The position numbers were made by a program, and so were the translations under genes. Positions 10,578 through 41,191 of a stretch of 64,000 nt of DNA are shown here, piece after piece. Under the pieces are notes generated by a model that saw nothing but the letters and a program-made list of their open reading frames with translations, was not told the DNA's origin and did no database searches. This DNA comes from Microbacterium paraoxydans. GTDB taxonomy: Bacteria; Actinomycetota; Actinomycetes; Actinomycetales; Microbacteriaceae. The DNA lies in the NCBI RefSeq assembly GCF_900105335.1, contig NZ_LT629770.1:1736001-1800000 (forward strand), given 5' to 3'. Numbering within the stretch: position 1 is the first letter of the stretch; every line of letters starts with the position of its first letter.

Positions 10578-13500
10578 TCAGCGGACGATGCGGAGCGTGC
10601 GGACCTCGAAGGGGCGGAGGTGGAACCCGCCGCCGAGGCGGGGCGCCTCGATCTCGTCGTCGATCAGGCTCACCTCGCGCACCTCGCGGTGCTCGAAGCC
10701 GACCGACAGCTCGCCGACCGCCCGGCGCCCGAGCGCCTCGTACACCCGCACGATGACGTCGCCGGAACCGTCGTCGGCGAGCTTCACGGCGGAGACGACG
10801 ATCCCCTCGCCCGACACCTCCACCAGCGGCTCGACCTCGCGCGCCCCGCGGATCACCGTGGGCGTGCTGTTGAGGCGGATGCCCTCGGCCGTGGCGATCG
10901 CGGCGTCGGCCCCGATCACGAGGCCGACCTCGATCTCGTGGAGCCCGTGATCCGTGTCCGGGTCGGGGAAGCGCGGCGCCCGCAACAGGGAGAGCCGCAC
11001 GGTCGTGGTGACGCCGTCCTCGCCGACCTCGCGCGTCGTGTCGTACCCGTAGATCGAGTCGTTCACGAGAGCCGCACCGAAGTCCTGCTCCCGTACCAGC
11101 ACGTAGCGGTGCATCGAGGTCTCGAACTTCGCCGCCTCCCAGCTCGTGTTCGTGTGGGTGACGCGCGCCTGGTAGCCGAACTGCGTCTCGGCTTCGGTGT
11201 GCGACGCCTGGATGTCGAGCGGGAAGGCGAGCTTGAGCAGCTTCTCGGTCTCGTGCCAGTCGACCTCGTTGCGAAGCAGCACCGTGCGCGAGCCGGGCGC
11301 GAGAAGGATCGTCTGCGTGATGGTCGACTCCGAGAACGGACGCACGACGACGATCTGCGCGACACCGTCCACGAGCGACGCTTCGATCGACGAGACCGCC
11401 GTGAGGTCGTCGACGCTGTTGCGGTAGTAGCGGTCGATGTCCCACGCGTCCCACATGTTCGGGAAGTCCTGGTGCAGCTGGAACAGGTTCGCGGCCTTGC
11501 CTGCGGCGACCGTCTCCCGCCCCGTGGCCTTGTCGACGGCGGAGACGATCAGGCCCTCGCCCGAGACGAGCACGGACACGAGATCGTTCTCGATCCGCCA
11601 TCCCGGGTGGGTCGCTGAGCCTGCCGAAGCGTCCTCGACGAGCGAGACCGGCCCTTCGACGGGCTCCGGGACCCACGAGGCGCCGAGTGCGCGCCCCCGA
11701 CCGACCGACGTCGGCTCGAACAGCAGCTCGCGGTCGCCATCGCCGGCGAGCGACCGGCGCGCGGCGTCAGCGATGTCGCGCGCATCCGAGAGCACGTCGG
11801 ACAGCACGGCGACGGCCTCGCGGTGCACCCACGCGATCGAGGTGCCGGGCAGGATGTCGTGGAACTCGTGCAGCAGCACGGCCTGCCAGAGCCGGTCGAG
11901 CTCGGCCTGCGGGTACGCGGCGCCGGTGCGCACGGCGTCGGTCGCGGCCCACAGCTCGGCCTCCACGAGCGCGTGCTCGGCCCACCGGTGCAGCGCCTTC
12001 GTGGCGTGCTGGCTCGTGAGCGTGCCGCGGTGCAGCTCGAGGTAGAGCTCGCCGACCCACACGGCCGGGTTCGGCAGCTCGGCCTTGGCGGCGTCGAAGA
12101 ACACGTCCGGGTGCTCCCACACCACCTGCGCGCTGCCCTCGAGGTCGCGCAGCCGCTCGGCCTTGCCCGTCATCTCGCGCGTCGTGCCGCCGCCGCCGTC
12201 ACCCCAGCCGACCGGGGCGATCGACCGCGAGCTGCGGCGGTTCTCCTTGAACTGCCGCGAGGCCTTCGCGACCTCCATGCCGCTCAGCTGCGAGTTGTAG
12301 GTGTCCATGGACGGGAAGTGCGTGAACACCTGCGAGCCGTCGATGCCCTCCCAGAGGAAGGAGTGGTGCGGGAAGACGTTCTGCTGGTTCCACGAGATCT
12401 TCTGCGTGAAGAACCACTCGAACCCGGCACGGCGCATCAGCTGCGGAAGGGCCGGCGAGTAGCCGAAGCTGTCCGGCAGCCATACGCCCTTCGACCGGAG
12501 GCCGAACTCGCGCTCGAAGAAGCGCTGCCCGTGCGAGAACTGCCGCACGAGCGACTCTCCCGTCGGCATGACGGTGTCGGACTCCACCCACATGCCGCCC
12601 AGCGGCAGGAAGCGTCCGGCGGCGACCGCGGCCTTGACCCGCTCCCACACCTCGGGACGGTGCTCCTTGATCCAGGCGTACTGCTGCGCGCTCGACATGC
12701 CGTACTGGAACTCGGGCTGCTCCTCGATGAGCGTGGTCATGGACGAGGTGGTGCGCGCGACCTTGCGGATCGTCTCGCGCACCGGCCACAGCCAGGCGGA
12801 GTCGATGTGCGCGTGGCCGACGGCCGAGATCCGGTGCGCACTCGCTTCGGCCGGAGCGGCGAGGACATCCGCGAGCCGGGCCCGCGCGTCGGCGGCGGTC
12901 TCCACGATGTGCTGCAGGTCGAGCACGTCGAGCGCGTCGTCCAGCGCCTGCAGGATGCGCATGCGGCGCGGCGACGTGGCGGGGAGCTCCGCCTGCAGCT
13001 CGAACAGCACCTCGAGGTCGAGGGACAGATCGAACACCTCGGGCTCGAACACCGCGAGGTCGAGGCGGCGCAGCCGGTACAGCGGCTCCTTCGAGGAGGT
13101 GAGGATGTCGCCCTCCTGCGTCGGCAGGAAGGGGTGGTAGTCGAGGAGGACGGGGTTGGACGCGCCCTCCAGGTAGAGCTCGACGGCCTCGTCACCCGCG
13201 GCGGTCTCGGCGATCGGGACCCACTGGTTGCGCGGGTTGATGCTCTTGATCGGCGTGCCGTCCGGCCGGTAGGCGAGGGCCTCGCACTGGAACCCCGTCA
13301 TGTTCACGTCGAAGCCCAGATCGATCAGCGCCTCGACCCGGCGGCCTGCCCATTCCGCGGGCACTCGACCGGTGAGCTTGAACCACGTCGTCCCCCACGC
13401 CGGGCCCCACAGCTCGCCGACCGCGGCGGGGGTGAACGAGAGCGCCAGGCCCTCCGCCGGGGCGACGGGCTCTCCGGGGAGCTGGTGCGCCTCGACCGTG

Positions 13501-13592
13501 AGGGGGATCGCGGCCGAGTGGATCGCCGGGCGGATGCGCTCTTCGAGGACCCGCTTGACGCGGCCGACGGTGAGCGAGGTGTCGTCATGCAT
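10578..13592 (-). CDS. GH38 alpha-mannosidase, cytoplasmic
   Basis: 1004 residues, full GH38 length, no signal peptide. Retaining, zinc-dependent alpha-mannosidase that trims alpha-mannose from oligomannose glycans. After an N-terminal beta domain, residues 259-270 (GHAHIDSAWLWP) give the metal-binding HxD (H262, D264), and WLPDSFGYSP (371-380) carries the predicted nucleophile D374. FFTQKISWN and the long beta-rich C-terminal half (from about 640) complete the family pattern. The ATG at 13590-13592 follows GGAGAACCC. It is divergent from the LacI gene, with two copies of the 16-bp operator between them. Expected to act on imported glycan fragments with the GH92 and GH5 enzymes. Confidence 0.95.
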   Translation of the reverse strand: MHDDTSLTVGRVKRVLEERIRPAIHSAAIPLTVEAHQLPGEPVAPAEGLALSFTPAAVGELWGPAWGTTWFKLTGRVPAEWAGRRVEALIDLGFDVNMTGFQCEALAYRPDGTPIKSINPRNQWVPIAETAAGDEAVELYLEGASNPVLLDYHPFLPTQEGDILTSSKEPLYRLRRLDLAVFEPEVFDLSLDLEVLFELQAELPATSPRRMRILQALDDALDVLDLQHIVETAADARARLADVLAAPAEASAHRISAVGHAHIDSAWLWPVRETIRKVARTTSSMTTLIEEQPEFQYGMSSAQQYAWIKEHRPEVWERVKAAVAAGRFLPLGGMWVESDTVMPTGESLVRQFSHGQRFFEREFGLRSKGVWLPDSFGYSPALPQLMRRAGFEWFFTQKISWNQQNVFPHHSFLWEGIDGSQVFTHFPSMDTYNSQLSGMEVAKASRQFKENRRSSRSIAPVGWGDGGGGTTREMTGKAERLRDLEGSAQVVWEHPDVFFDAAKAELPNPAVWVGELYLELHRGTLTSQHATKALHRWAEHALVEAELWAATDAVRTGAAYPQAELDRLWQAVLLHEFHDILPGTSIAWVHREAVAVLSDVLSDARDIADAARRSLAGDGDRELLFEPTSVGRGRALGASWVPEPVEGPVSLVEDASAGSATHPGWRIENDLVSVLVSGEGLIVSAVDKATGRETVAAGKAANLFQLHQDFPNMWDAWDIDRYYRNSVDDLTAVSSIEASLVDGVAQIVVVRPFSESTITQTILLAPGSRTVLLRNEVDWHETEKLLKLAFPLDIQASHTEAETQFGYQARVTHTNTSWEAAKFETSMHRYVLVREQDFGAALVNDSIYGYDTTREVGEDGVTTTVRLSLLRAPRFPDPDTDHGLHEIEVGLVIGADAAIATAEGIRLNSTPTVIRGAREVEPLVEVSGEGIVVSAVKLADDGSGDVIVRVYEALGRRAVGELSVGFEHREVREVSLIDDEIEAPRLGGGFHLRPFEVRTLRIVR

Positions 13593-13643
13593 GGTGGGGT
13601 TCTCCGGGCTCGACGGTGAGGGACTGGGTTCGATGCGTGTCGT

Positions 13644-13659
13644 TACTAAAACGATCTAG
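13644..13659. promoter_or_regulatory. LacI-type operator, site 1 (TACTAAAACGATCTAG)
   Basis: A 16-bp CG-centred site that fits the consensus TGCTNAAGCGNTNTAG built from the five copies in this locus. It lies 52 bases upstream of the GH38 start codon, in the gap shared with the divergent LacI gene. Confidence 0.75.
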
Positions 13660-13697
13660 CACGGGAGTCTACGGCACGTTCTCCGCTGCTTTCGAGA

Positions 13698-13713
13698 GGC
13701 TAAACCGATCAAG
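13698..13713. promoter_or_regulatory. LacI-type operator, site 2 (GGCTAAACCGATCAAG)
   Basis: Second, weaker copy of the 16-bp operator, ending 13 bases before the LacI ATG at 13727. The position suggests autorepression by the LacI regulator. Confidence 0.6.
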
Positions 13714-13726
13714 TAGGGTGATGCCT

Positions 13727-14752
13727 ATGACCCCGGGGAAACGCGTAACCATCGCGGATATCGCGCGCATGGCCGGCGTCTCCCCCGGCGCCGTATCGTT
13801 CGCCCTCAACGGTCGTCCCGGCGTGAGCGAGGAGACGCGGCAGCGCATCCTCTCGATCATCGAGGAGCACCACTGGCAGCCGAGCTCCGCCGCGCGCGCC
13901 CTCGTCGGCGCCCGGGCCAACGCGGTCGGGTTCGCCCTCGCCCGCCCGGCGCGCTCCCTCGGCTCCGAGGCCTTCTTCACCGACCTCATCGCCGGCATCG
14001 AGTCCCGGCTCTCCGAGAGCAAGGTCGGTCTGCAACTCCGCCTCGTCGCCGACATCGACGAGGAGATGGAGGTGCATCGGCAGTGGCGGTCGTCGAATCA
14101 GGTCGACGGCATCATCCTCATCGACCCGCGCGACGACGACCCGCGCGGCGCGCGCATCACGGCCCTGGACGCCCGCGCCGTCATGATCGGCTCGAAGCCC
14201 TCCCCGGACGGCGCGGTGCCCAGCGTGTGGATCGGCGACGACACCGTCGCGGAGACCCTGTTCTCCTACCTCGCCGCCCTCGGTCACACGCGCATCGCCT
14301 ACGTCGCCGGTCCGGCTGAACTGGAGCACACCCGTCTGCGCGCCGAGGTGCTGGAGCGGATGGCGGCGGACGGCGTCTCCGGTGAGGTCATCACGACCGA
14401 CTTCTCCCCCGCCCGCGCCTCCGCCGTGACGCGCGCGCTGCTCTCCGGCCGGCAGCGCCCGACCGCGATCGTGTACGACAACGACGTGATGGCCGTCGCC
14501 GGCCTCCGGGTCGCCCAGGAGATGGGCCGGGCGGTTCCCCGCGACGTCTCCCTCGCGTCGTTCGACGACTCGGTCATCGCGGGTCTCATCAACCCGTCGA
14601 TCACCGCGATGACCCGCGACACGTTCGAGCTCGGCGAGCAGGCCGCCACGCTTCTGCTGCAGCAGATCGAGGCCGGCACCACGCTGCCGAGCGTCCAGGG
14701 CCCGACCCCGGTGCTCACCGCTCGCGAGAGCACCGCGCCACCACCCCGCTGA
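13727..14752 (+). CDS. LacI family regulator of the N-glycan locus
   Basis: 341 residues. The N-terminal HTH reads VTIADIARMAGVSPGAVSFALNGRPGVSEETRQRI (6-40), followed by the hinge helix SSAARALVGARANAVGF and a periplasmic-binding-protein-like sugar sensor ending VLTARESTAPPPR. The ATG at 13727 has GGG at the right distance; ATG 13721 is also possible. It lies between GH38 and GH5, both transcribed away from or towards it, and five copies of a shared CG-centred 16-bp site mark this locus, so it is the likely repressor of the mannosidases, the importer and the Endo-H-like gene. The inducer is probably a mannose-containing oligosaccharide (inferred). Confidence 0.9.
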   Translation: MTPGKRVTIADIARMAGVSPGAVSFALNGRPGVSEETRQRILSIIEEHHWQPSSAARALVGARANAVGFALARPARSLGSEAFFTDLIAGIESRLSESKVGLQLRLVADIDEEMEVHRQWRSSNQVDGIILIDPRDDDPRGARITALDARAVMIGSKPSPDGAVPSVWIGDDTVAETLFSYLAALGHTRIAYVAGPAELEHTRLRAEVLERMAADGVSGEVITTDFSPARASAVTRALLSGRQRPTAIVYDNDVMAVAGLRVAQEMGRAVPRDVSLASFDDSVIAGLINPSITAMTRDTFELGEQAATLLLQQIEAGTTLPSVQGPTPVLTARESTAPPPR

Positions 14753-14830
14753 GACCCCGCCTCCCCGCCCACACCCCGGGCTCTCGACGCACGCACCCCG
14801 GGGTGTCGACGACAACCCGGGGTCTCGGCC
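14753..14830. terminator. CCCCGGGG-rich hairpin cluster between convergent genes
   Basis: Three imperfect tandem units of about 23 bases share CCCCGGG(G/C)T(C/G)TCG; one contains the perfect palindrome CACCCCGGGGTG (14794-14805), and the outer GAGACCCCG (14751-14759) can pair with CGGGGTCTC (14819-14826). The gap separates the convergent LacI and GH5 genes, so a bidirectional terminator is likely. Confidence 0.55.
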
Positions 14831-16135
14831 TCAGACGACGGTGTTGACGGAGGCGTAGCGCGTCACGTCGGACGCGGACGGGGCGGGGTGGATGAGACGG
14901 TGGATGCTGCGTGCCTCCAGCGCCGCGGGATCCTGTGCGGTGCGGGAGGTCACCAGAGAGGGATCCTCGCCCGCGGCGCAGGCATCGACCCAGGCCTGGA
15001 AGACCGCGCCGCCGGGGCTCAGGGCCGCCCGGCTCACCGGCACCTCCTGTTCGTCGACGTCCACCACGATCGCCGTCGGACGAGCCGGAGCCGCGGTGCG
15101 GGTGCGCAGCTCAGGGATGAGCTCCGCGAACCGGCGGCCGAGGGGCTTCGCCGCCCCCTCCTGGTCGATCAGCCCGAGGGAGTACTCCAGCTCCGGGAAG
15201 TCGGCGAGCTCCCGGCTCACGTCGTGCGAACACCACCAGGTCACACCCCAGAGGTTCTCGGTGCGGAGAGCCGAGCGCACGGTGGCCTCGAGGAACCCGG
15301 GCATCTCGCTCTCGTCGAGACAGTTCGAGGGGGCACCCACCTCCTGCAACCAGATGGGCCGGGCGGGATCCGTCGCGAACGCGCGGGACAGCTCGATGAG
15401 GTACTCCGCGTGGCGGTCGGCGGCGATCGAGCGCCCGCCGTAGCGCTGGGCGGTGCCGTTGAAGATCCAGGAGTGGATGGTCGTCATCGCGCCGAGCCGG
15501 GAGGCATGCGCCGGCGTGAACCCGTGATCGTCCATGTACCAGACCGCGTCGTACTCGCTGTGCACGTGCGGCAGCCCGGGAGCTCCCCGGTCCGCGGCGG
15601 CGAGCAGGGCCTCGATCCACCCGCCGGCCTCATCCGTCGTGACCGGCCACGGCGAGGGATGGGTGTGCGCCGAGAACTGATTCGTCTCGTTGCCGAGCGT
15701 GAGCCCGAGGAAGTTCGGGGCGTCCCGCAGCGCGCCGGCCAGCCGCTCCACGAGCTGCGCCTGGCCGTCCAGGGCGCTCGGATCGGTGAACATGTTCCGG
15801 TCGTGCCAGGTGTACAGCCAGGACGGGACGAAGTCGAAGCTCGACAGATGCCCCTGGATGACATCGACGCTCGCGTCCAGGCCGAACTCGGCGGCGATGT
15901 CGACCATGGTGCGCACGTCGTCGATCGCCTTCGCCCGGATGAGGGTGCGGTTGGGCTGCAGGACGGTCCAGAGCGGGAACACGCGCACGTGGTCGAGGCC
16001 GAGTGCGGCGAGGGCCGCGAAGTCGCGACGCACGTCGTCCGGGGTGAAGTCGAGCCAGGAGTGCATCCAGTCCGTCGACGGCGTGTAGTTCGCCCCGAAG
16101 CGAAGTGGGGCGTCGAGAGCGCCGCGCTGCGTCAT
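14831..16135 (-). CDS. GH5 glycoside hydrolase, GH5_18-like (N-glycan core beta-mannosidase candidate)
   Basis: 434 residues, no signal peptide. TIM-barrel enzyme; TLGNETNQF holds the acid/base E150 and IWLQEVGAP the nucleophile E265, the two catalytic Glu of clan A. The start [25 protein letters not shown] and the [11 protein letters not shown] segment resemble GH5 subfamily 18, whose characterised bifidobacterial member cleaves the Man-beta-1,4-GlcNAc left after N-glycan breakdown. The ATG at 16133-16135 follows GAAAGGTG. It is divergent from the importer operon, with one operator copy in front of it. Subfamily assignment is from recalled motifs, not a search; a beta-mannanase or another GH5 activity is the alternative. 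Confidence 0.8.
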
Positions 16136-16182
16136 GTGTGCACCTTTCGGACCGTGCCCTCCCGCGAGGACATGTCGCACCA

Positions 16183-16198
16183 CTATAACGCTTGAGCA
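16183..16198. promoter_or_regulatory. LacI-type operator, site 3 (GH5 promoter)
   Basis: On the minus strand it reads TGCTCAAGCGTTATAG, an almost exact match to the five-site consensus. Its TATAG end extends to TATAGT, a likely -10 element of the GH5 promoter, so bound repressor would block polymerase. Confidence 0.8.
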
Positions 16199-16219
16199 TC
16201 AGCCTCGATAGGCCACGCC

Positions 16220-16265
16220 TTGACACCGGCCGGATCGGATGGTTTCATCTGCTAAAGCGCTGTAG
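16220..16265 (+). promoter_or_regulatory. Importer promoter with overlapping LacI-type operator, site 4
   Basis: TTGACA (16220-16225) and TTTCAT (16243-16248) are 17 bases apart as -35 and -10. The operator TGCTAAAGCGCTGTAG occupies 16250-16265, at the expected transcription start, 48 bases before the binding-protein ATG. It matches the five-site consensus well. Confidence 0.75.
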
Positions 16266-16313
16266 TCCCTTCGTCGGACCACGCCGAATCGCCCGCCTCG
16301 AGGAAGAAGCACG

Positions 16314-17615
16314 ATGAAAGTTCCCGCACGCATTGTCGCTCTGGCAACCTTCACGATCGGCGCCCTGGCGCTCGTGAGCTGCACCGGAGGGGGCGCCGCC
16401 TCCGACGACGCCGGCCCCATCGACACCTCCGGCGAGCTCAGCGGAACCATCCAGTTCCAGACCTGGTCGCTGAAGAACGAGAAGTTCACGCCGTACTTCG
16501 AAGACCTCATCGCCGCCTTCGAGGAAGAGCACCCGGACGTGACCGTCGAGTGGCTCGACCAGCCCGGCGACGGCTACCAGGAGAAGATCCTGAGCCAGGC
16601 GAACGCCGACACGCTGCCCGACGTGCTCAACCTGCCGCCGGACATCGCCTACCCCCTCGTCGCGGCGGGGAAGCTCGTCGATCTGGACACCGCGGATCCG
16701 GACCTGAAGGCGGCGTACAACGCCGGGGCCTGGGACGCGTACAGCCAGTACCCCGGCGTCGAGGGCACCTACGGCCTGCCCTGGTACCTCTCCAGTGACG
16801 CGTCCTGGTGGAACCTCGCCCAGCTCGCCCCGTACGGCGTCACCGAGGAGAACCTCCCGACGACGGTCGACGAGCTGCTCACACTCGCGAAGGACGTCGC
16901 CACGGAGTCCGGCGGCAAGGTCCAGCTCCTCTCCTCGATCCCGGCGCTCGACACCTTCACCGCCGCCGGCATGGAGGTCATCAACGAGGAGGGCGAGTTC
17001 GACTTCAACACCGACGAGGCCGCCGCGATCATCGAGCAGTACGCCGACGCCTACGCGGCGGGCGCGATGCCCGCGGAGGCACTGACCGGTGACTACGGCG
17101 GGAACGCGGAGGCGTACATCCAGGAGAAGGTCGCCTTCACGACCGGCGGCACCGGCTTCACGACCGATCTGCAGAAGGACGCCCCGGCACTGCTGGAGAA
17201 CACCGTCGCCACCCCGCGCCTCGGTGTCGCCCCGCTCTACGTGCAGGGCCTCAACGTCTCCGCCGACTCCGACAACAAGGAAGCGGCCCTCGCGTTCGCC
17301 GAGTTCGCGACGAACGAGGAGAACCAGGTCGCGTTCTCCTCCCTCGCGGTCGGCACTGCCCCGGGCACGGCCGACGGCGGCGACCAGGTCGTCGAGAACA
17401 TCGCCTCCTCGGTCACGGACGAGAAGCAGCTCGCCGCGATCGACACCGTGTTCGGCGCGATGAAGGACGCCAAGGCGCTGCCGTTCCAGTGGACCTCGGA
17501 CATGGCCACCTACATGACCCAGCAGATCGCTCTCGCCGTGAACGGCGAGGCCGACGCCAAGACGCAGCTCGACAAGATCGTCGAGTACGCCAACGCGAAC
17601 CGCGTGGACCAGTGA
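16314..17615 (+). CDS. Sugar ABC transporter substrate-binding lipoprotein (N-glycan locus)
   Basis: 433 residues, extracytoplasmic solute-binding protein family 1. The signal peptide MKVPARIVALATFTIGALALVSC ends in the lipobox LVSC, with Cys23 as the lipid-anchored residue. The mature part has the family patterns LPDVLNLPPDIAYPLVAAGKLVDLD and TYGLPWYLSSDASWWN. It is the first gene of SBP-permease-permease-GH92 and should deliver an oligosaccharide, most simply the high-mannose glycan freed by the Endo-H-like enzyme. There is no ATPase gene in the cluster; a shared MsiK-type ATPase elsewhere is the usual actinobacterial solution. Confidence 0.92.
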   Translation: MKVPARIVALATFTIGALALVSCTGGGAASDDAGPIDTSGELSGTIQFQTWSLKNEKFTPYFEDLIAAFEEEHPDVTVEWLDQPGDGYQEKILSQANADTLPDVLNLPPDIAYPLVAAGKLVDLDTADPDLKAAYNAGAWDAYSQYPGVEGTYGLPWYLSSDASWWNLAQLAPYGVTEENLPTTVDELLTLAKDVATESGGKVQLLSSIPALDTFTAAGMEVINEEGEFDFNTDEAAAIIEQYADAYAAGAMPAEALTGDYGGNAEAYIQEKVAFTTGGTGFTTDLQKDAPALLENTVATPRLGVAPLYVQGLNVSADSDNKEAALAFAEFATNEENQVAFSSLAVGTAPGTADGGDQVVENIASSVTDEKQLAAIDTVFGAMKDAKALPFQWTSDMATYMTQQIALAVNGEADAKTQLDKIVEYANANRVDQ

Positions 17616-17656
17616 GCATGCGCGCGGACACCGGCACCCGGAAGCGGAGGTCGACG

Positions 17657-18544
17657 ATGAGATCCCACAAGTGGTTCACCCCGTGGCTGCTCCTCGCCCC
17701 CGCCGTGATCTGGGTGCTGGTGTTCGCGCTCTGGCCGTTCCTGAACACCGTCGTCCTCAGCTTCACGGACGCCCGCCCCCTGCGGACCCCGGAGTTCGTC
17801 GGCGGCGCGAACTACGAGCGCATGTTCGGCGACGAGATGTTCTGGAACGCGCTGACCACCTGCCTCATCTACGTGGTCGTGTGCGTGCCGCTGCTCACGG
17901 TCCTCCCGCTGCTCCTCGCCCTCCTCGTGCAGAAGAAGCTCCCCGGCATCTCGTTCTTCCGCACCACGTTCTACTTCCCCGTCATCGCCTCGGTCGTCGT
18001 CGTCGCCCTCATCTGGACCTGGCTGTTCGACAGCCGGGGCATCATCAACCAGACACTGGAGTTCCTCGGCCTCATCGATCAGCCGATGGCCTTCCTCGTC
18101 GACCGCTGGCTGCTGCTCGGCTGCGCGATCCTGCTCACGGTGTGGAAAGGACTCGGGTACTACATGGTGGTGTACCTCGCCGCCCTGGGGAACGTGGGCA
18201 AGGAACTGCACGAGGCCGCGATGCTCGACGGTGCGAGCTCCTTCCGCCGCTTCCTCTCCGTCACGATCCCGTCCGTGCGCGGGGCGATGCTCCTCATCGC
18301 GGTGCTGATCGCGGTGTCCGCCATGCGCGTGTTCGCCGAGCTCGACGTGCTCTCCAAGAGCACGGGCGGCCCCGGCGGCTACGACATGTCGCTCGTGATG
18401 CTCATCCGCCAGGTGGGCTCGGGCCTGAACGGCAACATCGGCTACGCATCCGCGATCAGCGTGGCGCTGTTCCTCCTCACGCTCGTGCCGCTCGCGGCGA
18501 TCGCGTTCATGAACCGCGAGAAGAAGGCGAAGGTCTCCGCATGA
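17657..18544 (+). CDS. Sugar ABC transporter permease, MalF type
   Basis: 295 residues with six predicted membrane helices, starting TPWLLLAPAVIWVLVFALWPF. The cytoplasmic EAA loop reads ELHEAAMLDGASSFRRFLSVTIPS. The ATG at 17657 has GGAGG six bases upstream; an upstream GTG at 17612 overlapping the SBP stop (GTGA) would add 15 residues. It ends in a 4-nt ATGA overlap with the second permease. Forms the membrane channel with that permease for the SBP at 16314. Confidence 0.9.
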   Translation: MRSHKWFTPWLLLAPAVIWVLVFALWPFLNTVVLSFTDARPLRTPEFVGGANYERMFGDEMFWNALTTCLIYVVVCVPLLTVLPLLLALLVQKKLPGISFFRTTFYFPVIASVVVVALIWTWLFDSRGIINQTLEFLGLIDQPMAFLVDRWLLLGCAILLTVWKGLGYYMVVYLAALGNVGKELHEAAMLDGASSFRRFLSVTIPSVRGAMLLIAVLIAVSAMRVFAELDVLSKSTGGPGGYDMSLVMLIRQVGSGLNGNIGYASAISVALFLLTLVPLAAIAFMNREKKAKVSA

Positions 18545-19473
18545 CGACTCTGACGACGCCCCCGGTGGAGAGCACTCCGCCCGTGGAGGAGGCACCGCGG
18601 CCCGGCCGCGAACGCATCTTCCGCCGCCGCGGCTCCGGAGACTTCAGCAAGCCCACGCTCGGCGGACTCATCGGCCGATACGCGCTGCTGCTGTTCGTCC
18701 TCTTCCTCGTCATCGGCCCCTTCGTCTGGCAGCTCTCCACGTCGTTCAAGGGACCGCAGGAGAACATCTACTCCTTCCCACCCGAGCTCATCCCCCGCGA
18801 TCCGACGCTGCAGAACTACACGAGGGTCGCCGACATCGTCCCCGTCTACCTCTACGCCTGGCACTCGCTGCTCGTCTCGCTCGGCACCGTGCTCAGCAAC
18901 GTGATCCTGGCCACGTTCGCCGGCTACGCCCTGGGCTGCATGCGCTTCCGCGGGAAGTGGATCGTCATGGGCATCCTGCTGTCCACGCTGCTGTTCCCCG
19001 GCGAGGTCACGGTCACCAGCAACTTCCTCACCATCCGCGCGCTCGGGCTCGCCGATACCCTGTGGGGCGTGTTCCTCCCGGGAGCGATCAGCGCCATGAA
19101 CGTGCTGCTCGTCGCCACCGCGTGCCGCATGATCCCGAAGGACGTGCTCGACGCGGCCACCGTCGACGGTGCGACCACGTGGCAGCGCATCCGGCACATC
19201 GTGTGGCCGAACATCCGCGGCATGGTCTCGGTGGTGGCGATCTTCGCCTTCATCGGCGCGTGGGACGACTACCTCTGGCCGCTCATCGTGCTGTCCGACC
19301 CGGCGAAGTACACCCTGACCGTGGGCATGGCCTACCTCAACAGCAGCTTCTCGGTCGATCCGCGACTCATCGCCGCCGGCACCATGATCGCGCTCGTGCC
19401 CATCGTGATCATGTTCTCGTTCACGCAGCGCTTCTTCTTCAAGGGCGTGCAGGAGGGTGCGCTGAAGGGGTGA
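18541..19473 (+). CDS. Sugar ABC transporter permease, MalG type
   Basis: 310 residues: an N-terminal cytoplasmic tail of about 50 residues, then six membrane helices. The EAA loop reads MIPKDVLDAATVDGATTWQRIRHIVWPNIRG, and the C-terminal end FTQRFFFKGVQEGALKG is typical of the family. Start ATGA overlaps the previous stop, and its own stop overlaps the GTG start of GH92. Pairs with the permease at 17657. Confidence 0.92.
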   Translation: MTTLTTPPVESTPPVEEAPRPGRERIFRRRGSGDFSKPTLGGLIGRYALLLFVLFLVIGPFVWQLSTSFKGPQENIYSFPPELIPRDPTLQNYTRVADIVPVYLYAWHSLLVSLGTVLSNVILATFAGYALGCMRFRGKWIVMGILLSTLLFPGEVTVTSNFLTIRALGLADTLWGVFLPGAISAMNVLLVATACRMIPKDVLDAATVDGATTWQRIRHIVWPNIRGMVSVVAIFAFIGAWDDYLWPLIVLSDPAKYTLTVGMAYLNSSFSVDPRLIAAGTMIALVPIVIMFSFTQRFFFKGVQEGALKG

Positions 19474-22400
19474 ACGCGCCGCTGCTCCGCCCGGCCTCCG
19501 GTCCCGCGGATCCTCCGTCGTCGCGCCCGCACGCCGGAGTGCTCCCCGGAGTCATCTTCGCGTACACGTTCGACCCCTCCCGCGGGGCGCAGCGGATCGA
19601 CGTCCCCGGCCTCGACGGCATCGTCCTCACCCCGGACACCGTGCTGCACTGGGCGTTCTACGCCGACGGCCCTGCGGCGACCCTCGCGCCGTGGGCCGGG
19701 CTCGCGGTCGCCGTCGACGTGCGGACCCCCGACGGCAGCCGGCTGAGCGACATCACCGCCGTCCGCGACCGCTACGACTTCCCGCTCACGGCCGAGGGGC
19801 AGTTCGCCGCCCGGTGGAGCATGCCCGAGCAGTGGAACGCCGACAGCGTCGCCCTCGCGCCCCTCGCCGTCGGGAGGGGCACCGGGACGGGCACGGTCGA
19901 GCTCGTCCTCGGCACGGCCGAGCTGGCGAGCACGCCGGATGTGCCCGCCGAGGTCAGCGGCTTCGTCCAGGTCCGCGTCGAGGAGCGCCCTGCCCCCGAC
20001 GATCTCCCACCCGTCGAGCGGGTCGACACCCGGCGCGGCTCCCACTCCGGCTCCCGCTTCTCCCGCGGGAACACGATCCCAGCGGTCGCCGTGCCCCACG
20101 GCTTCACCTTCGTCACGCCCGCGACCGACGCGGCGGACCCGCGCTGGCCCTATCGTCCGTTCGTGCACGACGATCCGCAGGGACGGCGTCTCGAAGCCCT
20201 GCAGTTCTCGCACCAGCCCAGCCCGTGGATCGGCGATCGCGCGGTGCTCCAGTTCATGCCGTTCCGGGGGACGCCGACGTCGGACAGGGCGGCCCGGCGT
20301 CGCTGGATCGTCCCCGAGAGCGAGCGCGCCCGCCCGCACGAGTACGCCGCGGACCTCGGCGATGGGCTGCAGGTCGAGATGACCGCGACCTCGCACGCCG
20401 CGGCGTTCCGCGTGCGGTGCGAGGACCCGCACGCCGCCGTGGGGTTCGTGATCGACCAGCTCACGGACGACGGCCGACTCACCTTCACGGACGCCGGCTT
20501 CGAGGGCTGGATCCCCGAGGGGCCTGAGGGCTGGGGGAACGCGCCGCGCTGCTACTTCGCCGGGACCGTGCACAGCGCATCGGACGTCGCGAAGGGCGCC
20601 CTGGACGACGACGGGCGTGCCAGGGTCGCGGGCTTCGTCCGCGCCGGGGGCGCCGTCGAGGTGCGGGTCGGGGTCTCGTTCCTCTCCGTCGCGCAGGCTC
20701 GGCACAGCCTCGCCCTCGAGGCCCCTCCCGCCGCCCCCTTCGACGAGCTCCGCGCCCGCGCGGCCACCGCGTGGAACCGCCTGCTCGGGCGCGTGACGAT
20801 CCCCCCGCTCCCCGAGGCCGAGCGCCCGTTCCGCGGCCTGGCCGACGAGGAGCAGCGCGCCCGGATCGCCGCCGCACTCCACCGGATGCACCTGTATCCG
20901 AACACGGCGGCGGAGAACGCGGGCACCGCGGACGCGCCGGAGTGGCGCTTCGCCGACGTGTTCGCCGCGCGGACCGCCTTCGGCGAGTCGGCAACGGGGG
21001 CGCCGGTCGTGGAGGGCGAGCTCGTCGTCAACAACGGCTACTGGGACACGTACCGCACCGAGTGGCCCGCGCTCGCACTCCTCGACCCCGCGCTGGCCGG
21101 GCGCCTGCTGGACGGGCAGCTCGCCCAGTATCGCCGCGGCGGCTGGATGGCCCGCTGGAGCGCCCCCGGGTACGTCGACAGCATGGTCGGCACCTCGAGC
21201 GACCAGATCTTCGCCGACGCGGAACGCTGGGACGTGCCCTTCGACCGGGAGGCGGCGTTCGAGAGCGGGTGGCGCCACGCGTGCGAGCCGGGACCCGATC
21301 CGCGACGGGGTCGCAAGGGCATCGGCCGCGGGCGCTTCCTCGGCTTCATCCCGTCCGACGTGCCGGAGGGGATGAGCTGGAGCATCGAGAACGCCGTGAG
21401 CGACGCCGCCCTCGGCCGGTTCGCCGCCCGACTCGCGGCATCAGCGGCGGCGGACCAGGCCGCGCGCTATCGGGCCTTCGCGCGGTACTTCGCGAATCGC
21501 TCCCGCGCGGCGCGCGTGCTCTTCGACCCGGCGTCCAAATTCTTCCGCGGTCGCGCGGCGGACGGGTCGTTCGCGCCGGATTTCGATCCTCGGGTCTGGG
21601 GTGGCGACAACGTCGAGACGAACGCCTGGGGCATGTCGGTCGGCATGGTGCACGACGGGCCGGGACTCGCGGCGCTGCACGGCGGGCGGACCGGACTCGG
21701 CCGGCACCTCGACGCCCTCTTCGCGGAGCCGGAGACCGCCGACGAGCGCTTCGGCGGTGCGTACGGCACGGTCATCCACGAGCAGCGCGAAGCCCGCGCC
21801 CAGCGGTCGGGCATGTGCGCCCTGTCGAACCAGCCGGCCCACCACATCCCCTTCATGTACGCCTTCAGCGACCGGCCGTGGCACAGCGCGGGCCTCGTGC
21901 ACGGCCTCGCGCGCCGCCTCTTCGCCGGTGCGCACATCGGCCAGGGCTTCCCGGGCGACGAGGACAACGGAGAGATGAGCGCTTGGTGGCTCTGGGCTGC
22001 GCTCGGCCTGTATCCCCTGGAGCTCGCTGCGGGGTCTCTGCGGATCGGGTCGCCGCTCTCGGACGACATCCGGGTCGCGCGCGGAGACGGCTCGTCGCTG
22101 CGCATCCGCTCGCGACGGAGCTCCCCCGAAGCCCACGTGCTGGAGGAAGCACGCCTGGACGGACGCCGGCTGCCCACCGCCGACCTCCCGATCGACGCAC
22201 TCCAGCGAGATACGGTGCTCGAGCTCGTGTTCGGCACGGACCCGGCGCGCGCGTTGGAGAGCGGGGAGGACGCGCTCGACGCGGAGCCGTGGCACCGCGA
22301 CCTCACGGGCGGAGAGGGAGAGGCCGTCGCCTCCGCGGATGTCCGCGAGGCGCGGCGCCTGTTCGACGACGGCGACCCGCAGGGTGACGAAGGCGTCAGG

Positions 22401-22682
22401 CTGCCGGAAGGCTCGTGGGTGGGCTGGCGATTCCCCTCACCCCGCGGACTCACCGACATCACCGTCACGAGCCGCGGGCCCGTCGCGGCCGGTGTGCTGC
22501 GCGGGGAGGTGGAGGGGGCCGACGGTCGCTGGCACCCGCTCACCACGACGCACCTCGAAGGGCTGGCGCCCGATCGCACGACGCCGTTCGCTCTGGAGAC
22601 GCGGGTCGTGACCTCGGCCGTCCGCATCCGCGCGGACGCCGAGGTCACGCTCCGTCAGATCGAGCTCTTCGATCTGGACTGA
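19470..22682 (+). CDS. GH92 alpha-mannosidase, no visible signal peptide
   Basis: About 1070 residues. GH92 enzymes are calcium-dependent inverting exo-alpha-mannosidases acting on alpha-1,2/1,3/1,4/1,6 linkages. The signature GDEDNGEMSAWW, with catalytic-region acidic residues, lies near residues 830-842, and NNGYWDTYRTEWPA, NVETNAWGMSVGM and SNQPAHHIPFMY fit the catalytic (alpha/alpha)6 domain; a beta-rich domain precedes it. A discoidin-like tail covers about the last 150 residues. The GTG start overlaps the permease stop. No secretion signal is visible, unlike many Bacteroidetes members, which fits a cytoplasmic enzyme acting after import. It ends one base before the convergent Endo-H-like gene. 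Confidence 0.93.
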   Translation: MNAPLLRPASGPADPPSSRPHAGVLPGVIFAYTFDPSRGAQRIDVPGLDGIVLTPDTVLHWAFYADGPAATLAPWAGLAVAVDVRTPDGSRLSDITAVRDRYDFPLTAEGQFAARWSMPEQWNADSVALAPLAVGRGTGTGTVELVLGTAELASTPDVPAEVSGFVQVRVEERPAPDDLPPVERVDTRRGSHSGSRFSRGNTIPAVAVPHGFTFVTPATDAADPRWPYRPFVHDDPQGRRLEALQFSHQPSPWIGDRAVLQFMPFRGTPTSDRAARRRWIVPESERARPHEYAADLGDGLQVEMTATSHAAAFRVRCEDPHAAVGFVIDQLTDDGRLTFTDAGFEGWIPEGPEGWGNAPRCYFAGTVHSASDVAKGALDDDGRARVAGFVRAGGAVEVRVGVSFLSVAQARHSLALEAPPAAPFDELRARAATAWNRLLGRVTIPPLPEAERPFRGLADEEQRARIAAALHRMHLYPNTAAENAGTADAPEWRFADVFAARTAFGESATGAPVVEGELVVNNGYWDTYRTEWPALALLDPALAGRLLDGQLAQYRRGGWMARWSAPGYVDSMVGTSSDQIFADAERWDVPFDREAAFESGWRHACEPGPDPRRGRKGIGRGRFLGFIPSDVPEGMSWSIENAVSDAALGRFAARLAASAAADQAARYRAFARYFANRSRAARVLFDPASKFFRGRAADGSFAPDFDPRVWGGDNVETNAWGMSVGMVHDGPGLAALHGGRTGLGRHLDALFAEPETADERFGGAYGTVIHEQREARAQRSGMCALSNQPAHHIPFMYAFSDRPWHSAGLVHGLARRLFAGAHIGQGFPGDEDNGEMSAWWLWAALGLYPLELAAGSLRIGSPLSDDIRVARGDGSSLRIRSRRSSPEAHVLEEARLDGRRLPTADLPIDALQRDTVLELVFGTDPARALESGEDALDAEPWHRDLTGGEGEAVASADVREARRLFDDGDPQGDEGVRLPEGSWVGWRFPSPRGLTDITVTSRGPVAAGVLRGEVEGADGRWHPLTTTHLEGLAPDRTTPFALETRVVTSAVRIRADAEVTLRQIELFDLD

Positions 22683-22683
22683 C

Positions 22684-23616
22684 TCACCGCGCCGCTGCGC
22701 GGTAGACGGTCGCCTCGCCCTTCAGCGCCTCGGTGATGCCGGAGAGATAGGACGACTGGTTCGTCGCCGTGAGGTTGTACGCGACATAGACGCCGTACCC
22801 GTCAGCCACCGTGCGCTGAGCGAAGTCCGCGGCCGTCGTGGCGCTCGTGTTCGCGAGGTCGATGGCCGCGGCGCCGAGCCGAGCGCGGTCGTCCAGGCCC
22901 GGCACGGTGGGAGCATCGTAGGTCGGGTAGTACGGGTTCCAGGCGTGATCGAGCACGCTGCCGGCGTCGAAGAGGCCGAAGTCCGTGGTCGTGTAGGACG
23001 GGCCGATGGCATACAGCGTGATGAGCTTGTCCGGCCCGAGCCGGTCGCGCAACGCGGAGGCCAGCCAGCCGAAGGACTGCGGGTTCGGCTGCGGGGTGCC
23101 GTTCGCCCCGTAGTTGCTCCACTCGTCGTCGAAGTCGATGCCGTCGAGGCCGTAGGCGGTCACGGTGTCTGCGAGCTGCGCGGCGAAGGCGTCGGCATCC
23201 GCGTACGACGTGAAGTTCGCGAAGCCGGCACCCTGGTGGTTTCCGAGGACCGACAGCAGCACCTTGGTGCCCTGGGCCTGCAGCGGGCGGATCTGGTTCT
23301 GCGCATCCTGCAGCGTCTCGGTGACCCGGTCGTTGAGGTGGAGGACCGCCTGCTCCCCGTCGTAGTTGATGTTCGCGGCGAAGATCATGGCCAGATCGAC
23401 CGCTGGGCGGCCCGACTCGGCGAGCGTGTAGTCCGCGACGTTCGCTAAATCGTTCGAGTTGACCTCGACGTAGACGGCGAGCTTCGGGTCGGCAGCGGCG
23501 GTATCGGCGACCGCTGTGGTCGAGGCGGCGAGGGCGGCGGCTCCAGCGGCTGCGAACGCCGCTGCTGCCGCGATACCTCTTCTCAGGCGGGACGATCGTG
23601 CGGGTGAGGAACTCAT
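22684..23616 (-). CDS. Secreted Endo-H-like endo-beta-N-acetylglucosaminidase (GH18)
   Basis: 310 residues. A Tat/Sec-type signal peptide (SSRLRRGIAAAAAFAAAGAAALA) is followed by an Ala-rich cleavage region near residues 38-42. The catalytic motif LDGIDFDDEW (157-166) fits GH18 DxxDxDxE, with the acid E165, and its context YGLDGIDFDDEWSNYG is nearly that of Streptomyces Endo H (EC 3.2.1.96), which cuts high-mannose N-glycans between the two core GlcNAc. LLSVLGNHQGAGFANF also matches that family. Length is normal for Endo H. The promoter carries operator site 5, tying it to the mannosidase locus. Chitinase activity is less likely because of its short Endo-H-type barrel. Confidence 0.9.
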   Translation of the reverse strand: MSSSPARSSRLRRGIAAAAAFAAAGAAALAASTTAVADTAAADPKLAVYVEVNSNDLANVADYTLAESGRPAVDLAMIFAANINYDGEQAVLHLNDRVTETLQDAQNQIRPLQAQGTKVLLSVLGNHQGAGFANFTSYADADAFAAQLADTVTAYGLDGIDFDDEWSNYGANGTPQPNPQSFGWLASALRDRLGPDKLITLYAIGPSYTTTDFGLFDAGSVLDHAWNPYYPTYDAPTVPGLDDRARLGAAAIDLANTSATTAADFAQRTVADGYGVYVAYNLTATNQSSYLSGITEALKGEATVYRAAAR

Positions 23617-25943: not shown

Positions 25944-27578
25944 TCAGATCGAGACGTCGCCGACGAGGTTGACCTTGATGCCCATGCCGTCGAACATCGC
26001 GGCCTTCGCGATCAGCGCCTTGTCCGCGGTCTCGGCGTCGGGCGCGTAGACGAGCTGCGCGTGGTTCGCCTTGTGCCGCGCCATGAACTGGTCGCGCGAG
26101 ATGCCGTGCAGCACCACATGGGCGATCGGCCACTCCGGGTTCGTGGCGTCCTTCCGGCGCTGCGTCTCCTCCGCCGGCAGCTCGACGACCGACGCCCGGA
26201 AGATGTCCGCCTGCAGGACGCCCTCGGCGATGAACACCCGGGAGAGCACGACCTCGCCGGGCTTCGAGACGCCGTTGATCGTGGCGCCGCCGGCGGGGAA
26301 GAACACGTGACCCTGGCGCCACCCCTCCGCGTTCTGCCAGCCGCCGAGATGGGAGGCCGGCACCGAGCCGGAGATCTCGTACACCCATACGAACTGCCCG
26401 TCGTAGTCATCGCCCCAACGGACGTCGTGGAGAGTGTTGTCGGGGACGAGCCCCATCGCCCGCCAGACGCGGTCGGTCACGAGTGCATCGACGGCGACGC
26501 CCTCGTCGGCCTCGTTGAAGTGCGGGAACGCGCGCCCCTCATGCAGCACGCGGGAGCCGTCGCGCGAGGTCACCGGCGGGCGCTCGGTGGAGTTCAGGAT
26601 GCCCTCCGCCAGGTCCGACGCCGGAACGAGGTCCTTCAAGCCCTGCTGGTACTGGATGCCGACCGCGTCGAGGCCGAAGTCGTCGGCGATGCGGAGGGCG
26701 GCGATGTACATCTTCAGCTGCCACTGCACCTGCTCGCGGGTGAGCTCGGTCGCGGCGTCCTCGCCGTAGCGGAAGGTCATGCCGCGCTCGATCAGCCAGT
26801 CGTAGGCGGCGTCGGCCTCCTCCTCGGTCACGTTCAGCATCTCCGCGTAGAGGGCCGACTGCGACAGGCGCTCCTTGTAGATGCCGGTCTGGTTGAGGAG
26901 CTCGTCGTCGAAGATGGCGTTGTACATGCCCATGCAGCCCTCGTCGAAGACGCCGATGATGGCCTTCTCGGCGCGCAGCTCCGCGGCGAGCGCCTCGCCG
27001 AGCTGCTTCTCCGGGCTGTCGGGCAGTGCGGGGAGCGGACGCACGTGGGAGGCGTCGTGGGTGATGGCGCCGGTCTCCGTCCACTCGCGGATGCCGTCGC
27101 GGAACCAGTCGTCGGTGAAGTCGACCGACCAGATCGTCGCGTACGGCTTGTCCATCTTCGTCAGGCCCGCGTTGAGGCCGAGGAGGCCGACGAGGCCGGG
27201 CCAGTCGCCCGCGAAGTTCGCCACCGTGAGGATCGGGCCCTCGTGCGTGCGGAGGCCCGCCAGCACGTGGTGCGAGTACTGCCAGACGGCCTCGGCGACG
27301 ATGAGCGGCGCGTCGACGGGGATGTTCTTGAACACCTCGAGCCCCATGCGCTGGCTGGAGATGAAGCCGTGACCGGTCTCCGGGTCGACCTCGTTGGCGC
27401 GGACGACCGTCCAGCCGAGGTCGTTCAGCACGCCGGTGACCCCGGCCTCGAGCTCGACCTGGGTGGGCCAGCCGGCTGTGTTGGCCGACTCTCGGAGGTC
27501 GCCGGAGGCGATCAGGTACGCGGTCTTCGGCGCAGCGGTGGGACGGGATGCCGGGGTGGGCAGGGTGTAGGCGGTCAT
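25944..27578 (-). CDS. L-fucose isomerase family sugar isomerase
   Basis: 544 residues. Manganese-dependent ketol-isomerase of the FucI type, interconverting L-fucose/L-fuculose or D-arabinose/D-ribulose. The region GVFDEGCMGMYNAIFDDELLNQTGIYKERLSQSALYAEM and QYQQGLKDLVPASDLAEGILN fit the family's catalytic centre, and HKANHAQLVYAP lies near the C-terminus, where FucI has its metal-binding His. Slightly shorter than E. coli FucI (591). The ATG overlaps the kinase stop (ATGA), so the kinase is translated first and the two are coupled. The substrate could be fucose, a 6-deoxy sugar or D-arabinose; it cannot be fixed from sequence. Confidence 0.82.
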   Translation of the reverse strand: MTAYTLPTPASRPTAAPKTAYLIASGDLRESANTAGWPTQVELEAGVTGVLNDLGWTVVRANEVDPETGHGFISSQRMGLEVFKNIPVDAPLIVAEAVWQYSHHVLAGLRTHEGPILTVANFAGDWPGLVGLLGLNAGLTKMDKPYATIWSVDFTDDWFRDGIREWTETGAITHDASHVRPLPALPDSPEKQLGEALAAELRAEKAIIGVFDEGCMGMYNAIFDDELLNQTGIYKERLSQSALYAEMLNVTEEEADAAYDWLIERGMTFRYGEDAATELTREQVQWQLKMYIAALRIADDFGLDAVGIQYQQGLKDLVPASDLAEGILNSTERPPVTSRDGSRVLHEGRAFPHFNEADEGVAVDALVTDRVWRAMGLVPDNTLHDVRWGDDYDGQFVWVYEISGSVPASHLGGWQNAEGWRQGHVFFPAGGATINGVSKPGEVVLSRVFIAEGVLQADIFRASVVELPAEETQRRKDATNPEWPIAHVVLHGISRDQFMARHKANHAQLVYAPDAETADKALIAKAAMFDGMGIKVNLVGDVSI

Positions 27579-29092: not shown

Positions 29093-29118
29093 GGTCTCTC
29101 CTTCGATACCGACGGTCC

Positions 29119-29155
29119 GTGCAGGCCTGCACCCAGGCTACGCGAAATCGATTTC
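29119..29155. promoter_or_regulatory. LacI box (GAAATCGATTTC) and a second palindrome upstream of the kinase
   Basis: GAAATCGATTTC (29144-29155) is a perfect CG-centred LacI-type palindrome, repeated exactly at 37110-37121 before the second importer. GTGCAGGCCTGCAC (29119-29132) is a second perfect palindrome nearer the gene. On the minus strand TTGCAT and TAGCCT, 18 bases apart, could be -35 and -10 with the LacI box between them. Confidence 0.75.
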
Positions 29156-29295
29156 ACGATGCAAGGAGCTGACTGCTTCTGCACCACGAGGACCGATATC
29201 GAGAGTCTCCACGATCTTCGCCTCCGGCCGGAAAAAACGCCGGTTCAGCACCGGAATACCGTGACATCCTGACCCCTCCGATCGAGACTGGAGGC

Positions 29296-30117: not shown

Positions 30118-30128
30118 CGACGCTGCGT

Positions 30129-31112: not shown

Positions 31113-31122
31113 GGGCACCCAC

Positions 31123-33972: not shown

Positions 33973-34011
33973 GCGTGGTCCTTCCGGGACGACGAGGAGG
34001 GGACGGGAGCT

Positions 34012-35816: not shown

Positions 35817-35824
35817 GTCGGTCC

Positions 35825-37072: not shown

Positions 37073-37109
37073 GATGCGTACTCCTTCGTCGATCAGATGA
37101 GGGTCGTGC

Positions 37110-37121
37110 GAAATCGATTTC
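37110..37121. promoter_or_regulatory. LacI box (GAAATCGATTTC) upstream of the second importer
   Basis: Perfect 12-bp CG-centred palindrome identical to 29144-29155. It lies 38 bases upstream of the binding-protein ATG, in the 86-bp gap after the GntR gene. Confidence 0.8.
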
Positions 37122-37158
37122 AAGACGGGTGCGACAGAACGCGCCGGTGCGGGGAGGG

Positions 37159-37875: not shown

Positions 37876-37938
37876 GTTCCGTTCGCCCCTTCGCGATATC
37901 GGCGGAATTCCTGGTTCTGAGCCTAGACAGTCGTTGCG

Positions 37939-37983
37939 CTTGTCGTCAAGTGCCCTCTCACCCACGTTCACTTGTCCGACAAG
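37939..37983. promoter_or_regulatory. Paired GntR-type operators (TTGTCNGACAA-like)
   Basis: CTTGTCCGACAAG (37971-37983) is a palindrome of the FadR/GntR type, and CTTGTCGTCAAG (37939-37950) is a second related one 20 bases away. Both are in the promoter region of the GntR gene. A similar palindrome, GTCCGACAAGTCGGAC, lies inside its first codons (near 37836-37851). Confidence 0.65.
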
Positions 37984-38003
37984 CGAGCGCGGGCACACGC
38001 AGA

Positions 38004-38031
38004 GATGCCGCGACCCGAAGGCCGCGGCATC
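38004..38031 (-). terminator. Terminator after the tctCBA-dapA operon
   Basis: GATGCCGCG and CGCGGCATC form a 9-bp stem, with a further CC/GG pair and loop CGAA inside. It begins 28 bases past the stop of the lyase gene at 38060. Confidence 0.65.
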
Positions 38032-38059
38032 CCGTCGCGTGCGTCTCCCCGGATTCGCG

Positions 38060-41132: not shown

Positions 41133-41154
41133 GGTGCTCCTTCGTCGGAGGACG

Positions 41155-41184
41155 CGGTGGGGTCGGCGCGTACCGACCCCACCG
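41155..41184 (-). terminator. Intercistronic hairpin between tctC and tctB
   Basis: Perfect 12-bp arms CGGTGGGGTCGG and CCGACCCCACCG with a 6-base loop, in the 59-bp gap between the TctC stop (41192) and the TctB start (41132). Such hairpins usually raise the level of the binding protein over the membrane subunits by attenuation or by protecting the 3' end. Confidence 0.7.
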
Positions 41185-41191
41185 GAGGTGT

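Follow-up and report, generated by a model that had tools for sequence, protein, structure and literature searches.

A locus of Microbacterium paraoxydans that probably serves feeding on high-mannose N-glycans, and an alternative gene set on the same chassis in its relatives

In a stretch of 64,000 nucleotides from Microbacterium paraoxydans (contig NZ_LT629770.1, positions 1,736,001 to 1,800,000; this whole stretch is called the window hereafter), eight genes fill positions 10578-23616: those of a GH38, a LacI-family regulator, a GH5_18, the binding protein and two permeases of an ATP-binding cassette (ABC) importer, a GH92 and a GH18. To judge from their sequences, this locus would, with high probability, enable Microbacterium to feed on high-mannose N-glycans, the Endo H-type GH18, the GH92 and the binding protein (type A, as defined below) being the high-mannose set on a chassis (LacI, operators, permeases, GH5_18 and GH38) that in relatives carries another set. 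An earlier sequence-only reading had taken the region as one unit made up of a GH18 with catalytic E165, an importer, a GH38, a GH92, a GH5_18-like enzyme and a LacI gene, and every one of these genes is indeed present there; the occurrence of a GH5_18 together with a GH38, an importer and a regulator is that of an actinobacterial N-glycan utilisation locus. The genes are as follows.

10578..13592, minus strand: GH38 alpha-mannosidase, cytoplasmic (no signal peptide by eye), 1004 amino acids, with the Pfam GH38 N, middle and C domains
13727..14752, plus strand: LacI-family regulator, 341 amino acids, Pfam LacI and Peripla_BP_3
14831..16135, minus strand: GH5_18 exo-beta-mannosidase, cytoplasmic, predicted from PDB matches and catalytic residues to cleave Man-beta-1,4-GlcNAc, 434 amino acids from the ATG
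16314..17615, plus strand: binding protein of the ABC importer, type A, a lipoprotein by eye (lipobox-like LVSC), Pfam SBP_bac_8/SBP_bac_1
17618..18544, plus strand: ABC permease 1, Pfam BPD_transp_1
18541..19473, plus strand: ABC permease 2, Pfam BPD_transp_1
19470..22682, plus strand: predicted GH92 alpha-1,2-mannosidase, cytoplasmic, GTG start, 1070 amino acids, no signal peptide by eye, Pfam N and catalytic domains (on the longer open reading frame)
22684..23616, minus strand: predicted secreted Endo H-type GH18 endo-beta-N-acetylglucosaminidase, 310 amino acids, by NF045482 and PDB Endo H

Two of these starts were matters of choice: for the regulator the list of open reading frames has a GTG at 13616, and the ATG at 13727 was adopted; for the GH5_18 the ATG was preferred over a GTG at 16183, which touches an operator, by alignment to PDB 9y4v. 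The GH92 is the fourth gene of the run that begins with the binding protein and the permeases, the starts within this run being overlapping or closely spaced.

The earlier view of the GH18 as Endo H-like rather than a chitinase has held: the protein reaches 361.1 bits against the NCBIfam Endo H equivalog NF045482, whose cut-off is 300, and against the PDB it scores 273 bits with Endo H and 130 with Endo F1, the chitinase-named entries listed reaching at most 39.7. Its DxxDxDxE motif reads DGIDFDDE at residues 158-165, E165 being the last Glu, and in the form DG[IV]DFDDE it is kept in 25 of 25 related proteins; an export signal is present as judged by eye, without a prediction program. In the source genome, a single contig of 3.55 Mb, this is the sole GH18 match with Pfam, and GH85 has none.

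The GH5 protein has no Pfam match, its identity resting on PDB matches and on the scan of related loci, and its closest solved structures (9y4v with 853 bits, ScGH5_18 with 513 and BlGH5_18 with 472) are GH5_18 enzymes, so that the proposed assignment to subfamily 18 stands by comparison with PDB sequences rather than by dbCAN. The first of these structures, for which open-access searches returned no paper, shows no difference from the Microbacterium oxydans copy (locus L013) across 294 compared residues. GNETN and QEVGAP contain the acid/base and nucleophile Glu to be expected, with roles as given in PMC6160142, and GH5_18 is listed among the enzymes acting on Man-beta-1,4-GlcNAc (PMC10154615). 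The GH38, besides its three domains, has the motif WLPDSFGY and is the only match to the N-domain in the genome. Its nearest solved structures are the alpha-mannosidase entries 7ufr, 7ufu, 7ufs and 7uft, at 700-797 bits, which we take to be B. longum enzymes. Because GH125 has no Pfam match in the genome, this single GH38 would need to remove both alpha-1,3- and alpha-1,6-mannose.

The GH92, likewise the sole match of its family in the genome, has as its closest solved relative the alpha-1,2-mannosidase NnGH92 (542 bits), and the residues named for acid, base and alpha-1,2 specificity (PMC10167667, PMC5930347), an acid Glu, a base Asp and the Trp and His-Glu of the +1 subsite, here E716, D830, W253, H770 and E771, are found in 28 of 28 aligned sequences; these are the window's own and those of 27 loci, the partial L019 and L058 having been set aside from the 29 that match GH92. 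A different role, that of a mannose-phosphate uncapping enzyme like that of Cellulosimicrobium, was considered because the Q in SNQPAHHIP suggested a missing general acid. It was dropped, since by alignment and residue numbering the Glu of VETNAW serves as the acid, and this Glu is there. The GH20 matches of the source genome lie about 1.1 Mb from the locus.

The association of the GH18 with the rest of the locus can be followed across the genus. Among 295 Microbacterium genomes, a GH18 match of any strength at E 0.001 was seen in 51 and a GH5_18 match in 108, just part of the first-look candidates having been scored in many of them; with strong matches set at 258.8 bits or more for GH18 and 200 or more for GH5_18, and counted by hand, Endo H occurs in 41 genomes and GH5_18 in 86. 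A strong GH5_18 match is present in 40 of the 41 genomes with a strong Endo H match, against 86 of 295 overall, the exception (G209) having a partial one on a different contig. The two genes are 3.7-7.6 kb apart on one contig in 37 of the 41; in G173 a GH5_18 fragment lies at the end of the Endo H contig, some 6.6 kb away, and in G025, G032 and G209 the two are on different contigs of draft assemblies.

A scan for GH5_18 confirmed 121 stretches, of which 80 were analysed, and their binding proteins fall into classes, type A being at least 60% identical to that of the window and type B at least 60% identical to that of locus L022: 30 loci are type A, 21 are type B, 16 have a distant binding protein and 13 have none detected. 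Absence being here absence from the stretch fetched, and GH20 being counted from 300 bits upwards (which sets aside weaker matches in 3 type A and 2 type B loci), the two main types differ in what accompanies the chassis. Type A loci carry Endo H in 25 cases (24 Microbacterium and 1 Arthrobacter), GH92 in 28 and GH20 in 5, with no EndoS-like gene; type B loci carry an EndoS-like gene in 13, GH20 in 17 and a sulfatase in 10, with neither Endo H nor GH92. None of the 80 has both endoglycosidases, and the slot after permease 2 is occupied by GH92 in 28 of the 28 type A loci that have it and by GH20 in 17 of 17 type B loci. Of the five type A loci that lack Endo H, two are Microbacterium sp. LCT-H2 and L009, and the other three are contigs of 6.6-8.0 kb.

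Pfam places its EndoS TIM-barrel domain in the EndoS-like proteins of both L022 and L027, whose PDB matches include 8uen (named 'CP40'), 7puj ('beta-N-acetylhexosaminidase') and several EndoS entries. EndoS-like enzymes prefer complex-type glycans, from which we infer that the type B set is probably one for complex-type N-glycans. In L022 (8433-9956) an N-sulphoglucosamine-type sulfatase stands between the binding protein and the GH5_18, its relatives being those counted above in type B loci, which hints at sulfated N-glycans. In the type A loci L003 (12594-14039) and L005 (12444-13877) a GH20 lies between LacI and GH38, perhaps for hybrid-type glycans. Seven further loci (L033, L040, L043, L044, L049, L052 and L054) have a GH5_18 with no binding protein detected, five of them with both GH38 and LacI.

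In a tree of the GH5_18 proteins (50 rows: the window, 29 type A loci and 20 type B, L058 and L060 being excluded as partial; L045 is a long branch) the two types interleave, with 7 changes of type (bootstrap 5-95% range 6-7), of which at least 4 are forced by starred branches, and trees with a single change make up 0% of 200 bootstraps. The number of changes is to be read as a guide, the tree being that of one chassis gene which adjoins the exchanged genes and may have been exchanged with them. Because an Arthrobacter (L056) carries a type A locus, transfer between genera is suggested. On this evidence we would explain the A/B pattern by an exchange of high-mannose and probable complex-type gene sets on one chassis. 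The wider proposal that may be drawn from it, and which we advance tentatively, with confidence a little short of even, is that of a plug-in N-glycan machine in Microbacterium and Arthrobacter, in which regulator, operator type, permease pair, GH38 and GH5_18 would stay in place and the enzymes for release and trimming would be swapped jointly with the binding protein, repeatedly and between genera, with a single inducer derived from the glycan core, and with a second operator inside the GH18 gene kept at the cost of a rare TTA codon.

Candidate operators for the regulator can be seen in the DNA, in the form of six matches to the pattern CTNAANCGNTNNAG, which was built by eye from five sites, the sixth, inside the GH18, having come from the scan.

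13646..13659, plus strand: operator in the GH38/LacI intergenic region, pattern match
13700..13713, plus strand: second operator in the GH38/LacI intergenic region, 54 bp from the first, pattern match
16183..16196, minus strand: operator upstream of GH5_18, pattern match, containing TATAGT towards the gene (by eye)
16252..16265, plus strand: operator upstream of the binding-protein operon, 69 bp from the GH5 operator, pattern match
23445..23458, plus strand: operator inside GH18, found by the pattern scan, overlapping codons S54 to L57
23681..23694, minus strand: operator upstream of GH18, 236 bp from the intragenic one, pattern match, with TATAGT inside (by eye)

The idea of a shared operator set is thereby given substance, for against these six matches in the window stand a mean of 0.07 and a largest value of 2 in 100 shuffles. 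Genome-wide there are 9 matches, 6 of them in the locus, and a reversed control pattern has 15, so that the enrichment is limited to the locus (binomial 2e-13, for a pattern derived from these sites) and the genome as a whole is not enriched; the 3 matches outside, which are richer in GC, are probably due to chance, because the reversed control has that many. A longer pattern, RCTNAANCGNTNNAGNA, matched only 2 sites in the genome since the ends vary, and the core pattern was used instead. The operators are paired at three regions, GH38/LacI, GH5_18/binding protein and GH18 (one upstream, one within the gene), and the GH92 has none of its own. At least one match, not in every case upstream of a gene, is found in 51 of 51 type A and B loci, in 7 of the 13 loci without a detected binding protein and in 3 of the 16 distant ones, and in related loci too an orthologue of the LacI gene adjoins the operators. 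What we would expect of a LacI regulon is therefore seen as palindrome-like candidate operators at the putatively regulated units, conserved in orthologous loci. A terminator scan of 13500-16400 found none.

The site within the GH18 has left its mark on the choice of codons. In the window D56 is GAT and L57 is TTA, and each of the 19 genes of the type A1 set (the window's and those of 18 loci) has TTA at Leu57 and GAT at Asp56. None of the 13 other invariant Leu columns shows a TTA, the 15 other invariant Asp are mostly or wholly GAC, and Ser54 is TCG in 18 of the 19 genes. Of 156 residue-invariant codons, Met and Trp excluded, 38 are also codon-invariant, so that codon invariance alone is not rare and it is the unusual codons that carry the signal. 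The distance between the upstream and the intragenic operator is likewise conserved, at 232-238 bp in 18 of 18 loci. Judged by these codons, the intragenic site is no accident of the protein sequence.

From the genes, families, catalytic residues and operators observed, a sequence of events can be proposed in which the enzyme families dictate the chemistry, while substrates, transport, order of steps, repression and inducer are all our reconstruction. A secreted Endo H-type enzyme would cut the chitobiose core of glycoprotein glycans, and the resulting ManxGlcNAc would be taken up through the binding protein and the permease pair, together with an ATPase whose gene lies outside the locus; inside the cell, GH92 would take off alpha-1,2-mannose, GH38 would take off alpha-1,3/1,6-mannose, and GH5_18 would split the remaining Man-beta-1,4-GlcNAc. 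One LacI repressor would act at the three regions, with two operators at each, the pair of the GH18 being the upstream and the intragenic one. In relatives, the alternative set of EndoS-like enzyme, GH20, type B binding protein and, in some, a sulfatase would probably do the same for complex-type N-glycans. Because the LacI family and the operator type are common to type A and type B loci, the inducer is probably common to both sets as well, and the repressor could be released by a core product such as Man-beta-1,4-GlcNAc or the mannosyl core. As for the claim that the locus is complete, it stands for the glycan-specific steps, while GlcNAc and mannose metabolism and the transporter ATPase lie outside what was searched; no gene for the latter was seen within the locus, and no genome search was aimed at one.

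Other explanations must be set beside this pathway and this regulon. It could be supposed that mere chance has put the GH18, as a peripheral or chitinase-like enzyme, beside a mannoside locus, given that it is on the opposite strand to the GH92 and has no match in LCT-H2 and L009; this we hold to be very improbable, in view of its score above the NF045482 cut-off, of the operator of the same type upstream of it together with the one within it, and of its position at most 7.6 kb from GH5_18 in 37 of 41 genomes. The conserved TTA could in turn be read as a translational control device of the bldA kind and not as part of an operator, for TTA codons act as switches in Streptomyces, and this codon accounts for only 2 of 1065 Leu codons in 25 genes of the window, Leu57 of the GH18 being one of the two. 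Such a device seems to us improbable, for the adjacent GAT, invariant in all 19 genes, and the TCG, in 18, spell the operator together with the TTA, and in 7 type A2 loci (GH18 after GH92, in the same direction) the GH18 has neither TTA nor a match to the pattern.

The A/B pattern, for its part, could have arisen by an old duplication with differential loss rather than by exchange of gene sets. Three genomes (G024, G098 and G262) do have two strong GH5_18 matches each, only 22 of the 47 inner branches of the tree are starred, and the type B set is not always contiguous; against this stand the changes forced by the starred branches, the taking of the same slot beside the same permeases by GH92 and GH20, and the want of any locus, among the 80, with both endoglycosidases, so that we consider duplication unlikely as the cause. 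As to the substrate, the same enzymes might serve to attack the fungal cell wall, their target being the N-glycans of fungal or yeast mannoprotein and fragments of outer-chain mannan in place of high-mannose glycans from animals or plants. Endo H cuts yeast N-glycans too. NnGH92, the closest GH92 of solved structure, is an enzyme of a soil bacterium, and yeast alpha-mannan was a substrate in its assays (PMC10167667), whereas no GH76-type endo-mannanase is found by Pfam among the proteins of the locus (the genome was not searched for one) and the GH5_18 and GH38 of Cutibacterium are described as a pathway for the N-glycan core. This fungal substrate we would rate as a minority possibility, and it overlaps with the high-mannose N-glycan reading.

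There are, moreover, several observations that weigh against the high-mannose set on an exchangeable chassis. LCT-H2, the nearest named relative in the GH5_18 search (its GH5_18 is 97% identical), and L009 possess the remainder of the locus and no Endo H match in the genome, and because they keep the locus in this state the Endo H would be either dispensable or replaced by another enzyme that supplies the glycans; in LCT-H2 (L057, 3330-3560) the interval from GH92 to the ATPase lacks the GH18 gene along with its two operators, and G210 and G231, as near as LCT-H2, keep Endo H at 94-96% identity. The partition leaves 29 of the 80 loci outside types A and B, and 41 of the 121 confirmed loci are not in the analysed set. 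An EndoS-like gene is missing from 8 of the 21 type B loci (3 of them contigs of less than 8 kb), and the GH20 of five type A loci means that the sets are not wholly exclusive. Nor is the type B set one fixed block, because the position of the EndoS-like gene varies: in 6 of 13 loci it comes after GH20, in another 6 it lies on the far side of LacI, and in 1 it is elsewhere. In the PDB, the EndoS-like protein is matched best by an entry bearing the name 'Chitinase' (6kpl, presumably a fungal endoglycosidase). Finally, the operator pattern is counted on the same sites from which it was derived, and a scan of 13500-16400 found no consensus sigma-70 promoter.

Compared with known systems, the locus proposed here for high-mannose N-glycans is of a kind already known, and what would be new is the proposed exchange of gene sets and the regulatory detail. 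The Streptomyces Endo H, which belongs to the same NCBIfam equivalog family and has the same catalytic motif, is known as an isolated enzyme, whereas the GH18 of Microbacterium sits in a regulated locus. In Bacteroides thetaiotaomicron, the high-mannose polysaccharide utilization locus works with SusC/D-type outer-membrane uptake, in contrast to the ABC importer and LacI regulator of Microbacterium. A GH92 gene has reportedly been noted in a genome of Subtercola, another member of the Microbacteriaceae (PMC10303725). Locus L068, from Bifidobacterium phasiani, has two GH38, a binding protein, permeases and GH5_18 together. According to the account in the review PMC10154615, the pathways of B. 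longum, Streptococcus pneumoniae and B. thetaiotaomicron follow the same logic, and the high-mannose locus of the last has, like the one proposed here, the endoglycosidase first and the mannosidases in the cell. In the B. longum high-mannose system (Cordeiro et al., via PMC10154615), the glycan reaches the endoglycosidase untrimmed and the mannosidases do their work intracellularly, an order which we would propose for Microbacterium as well; that system is described with three GH38 and a GH125 in one operon (PMC10154615), whereas here there are one GH38, one GH92, no GH125 match and an Endo H-type GH18. The C. acnes locus with GH38, GH5_18 and GH20 described in PMC6160142 resembles the present one in having GH38 beside GH5_18, ABC transporter genes, a regulator and cytoplasmic trimming; it is described there with a GH20 and a GH18 without signal peptide, and with no linked secreted endoglycosidase or GH92, both of which Microbacterium has. 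In the same genus, the GH92 of Microbacterium sp. M-90 (aman2), named in PMC10167667, is an alpha-1,2-mannosidase said there to carry a CBM32, and is set beside the GH92 of the window by this description only.

The open-access literature found holds no description of the locus in Microbacteriaceae, of the A/B exchange or of the intragenic operator. This agrees with the earlier reading, to which no described case in the family was known; the layout is, even so, not rare, since Endo H-bearing type A loci make up 25 of the 80.

To the left of the locus lie an open reading frame without Pfam match and a glycosyltransferase gene, and to the right a heavy-metal P-type ATPase. Beyond this ATPase, 25944-31118 holds a protein with a fucose-isomerase C-terminal domain, an FGGY kinase and another LacI regulator, and is probably a separate sugar locus; 32887-42160, with an enolase-superfamily enzyme, an ABC permease and binding protein, a GntR/FCD regulator, a DHDPS-family enzyme and a TctA/TctC transporter, is perhaps a sugar-acid locus.

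In summary, N-glycan feeding would be placed in a genus that does not feature in the open-access papers found. If the exchange of gene sets is accepted, these loci would offer a natural experiment in which the diet changes between two probable classes of N-glycan by the swapping of a few linked genes, and in which the type of binding protein would predict the class of substrate. The related loci supply two kinds of endoglycosidase for comparison, and the site within the GH18 gene is a clean and directly testable candidate for an intragenic operator.

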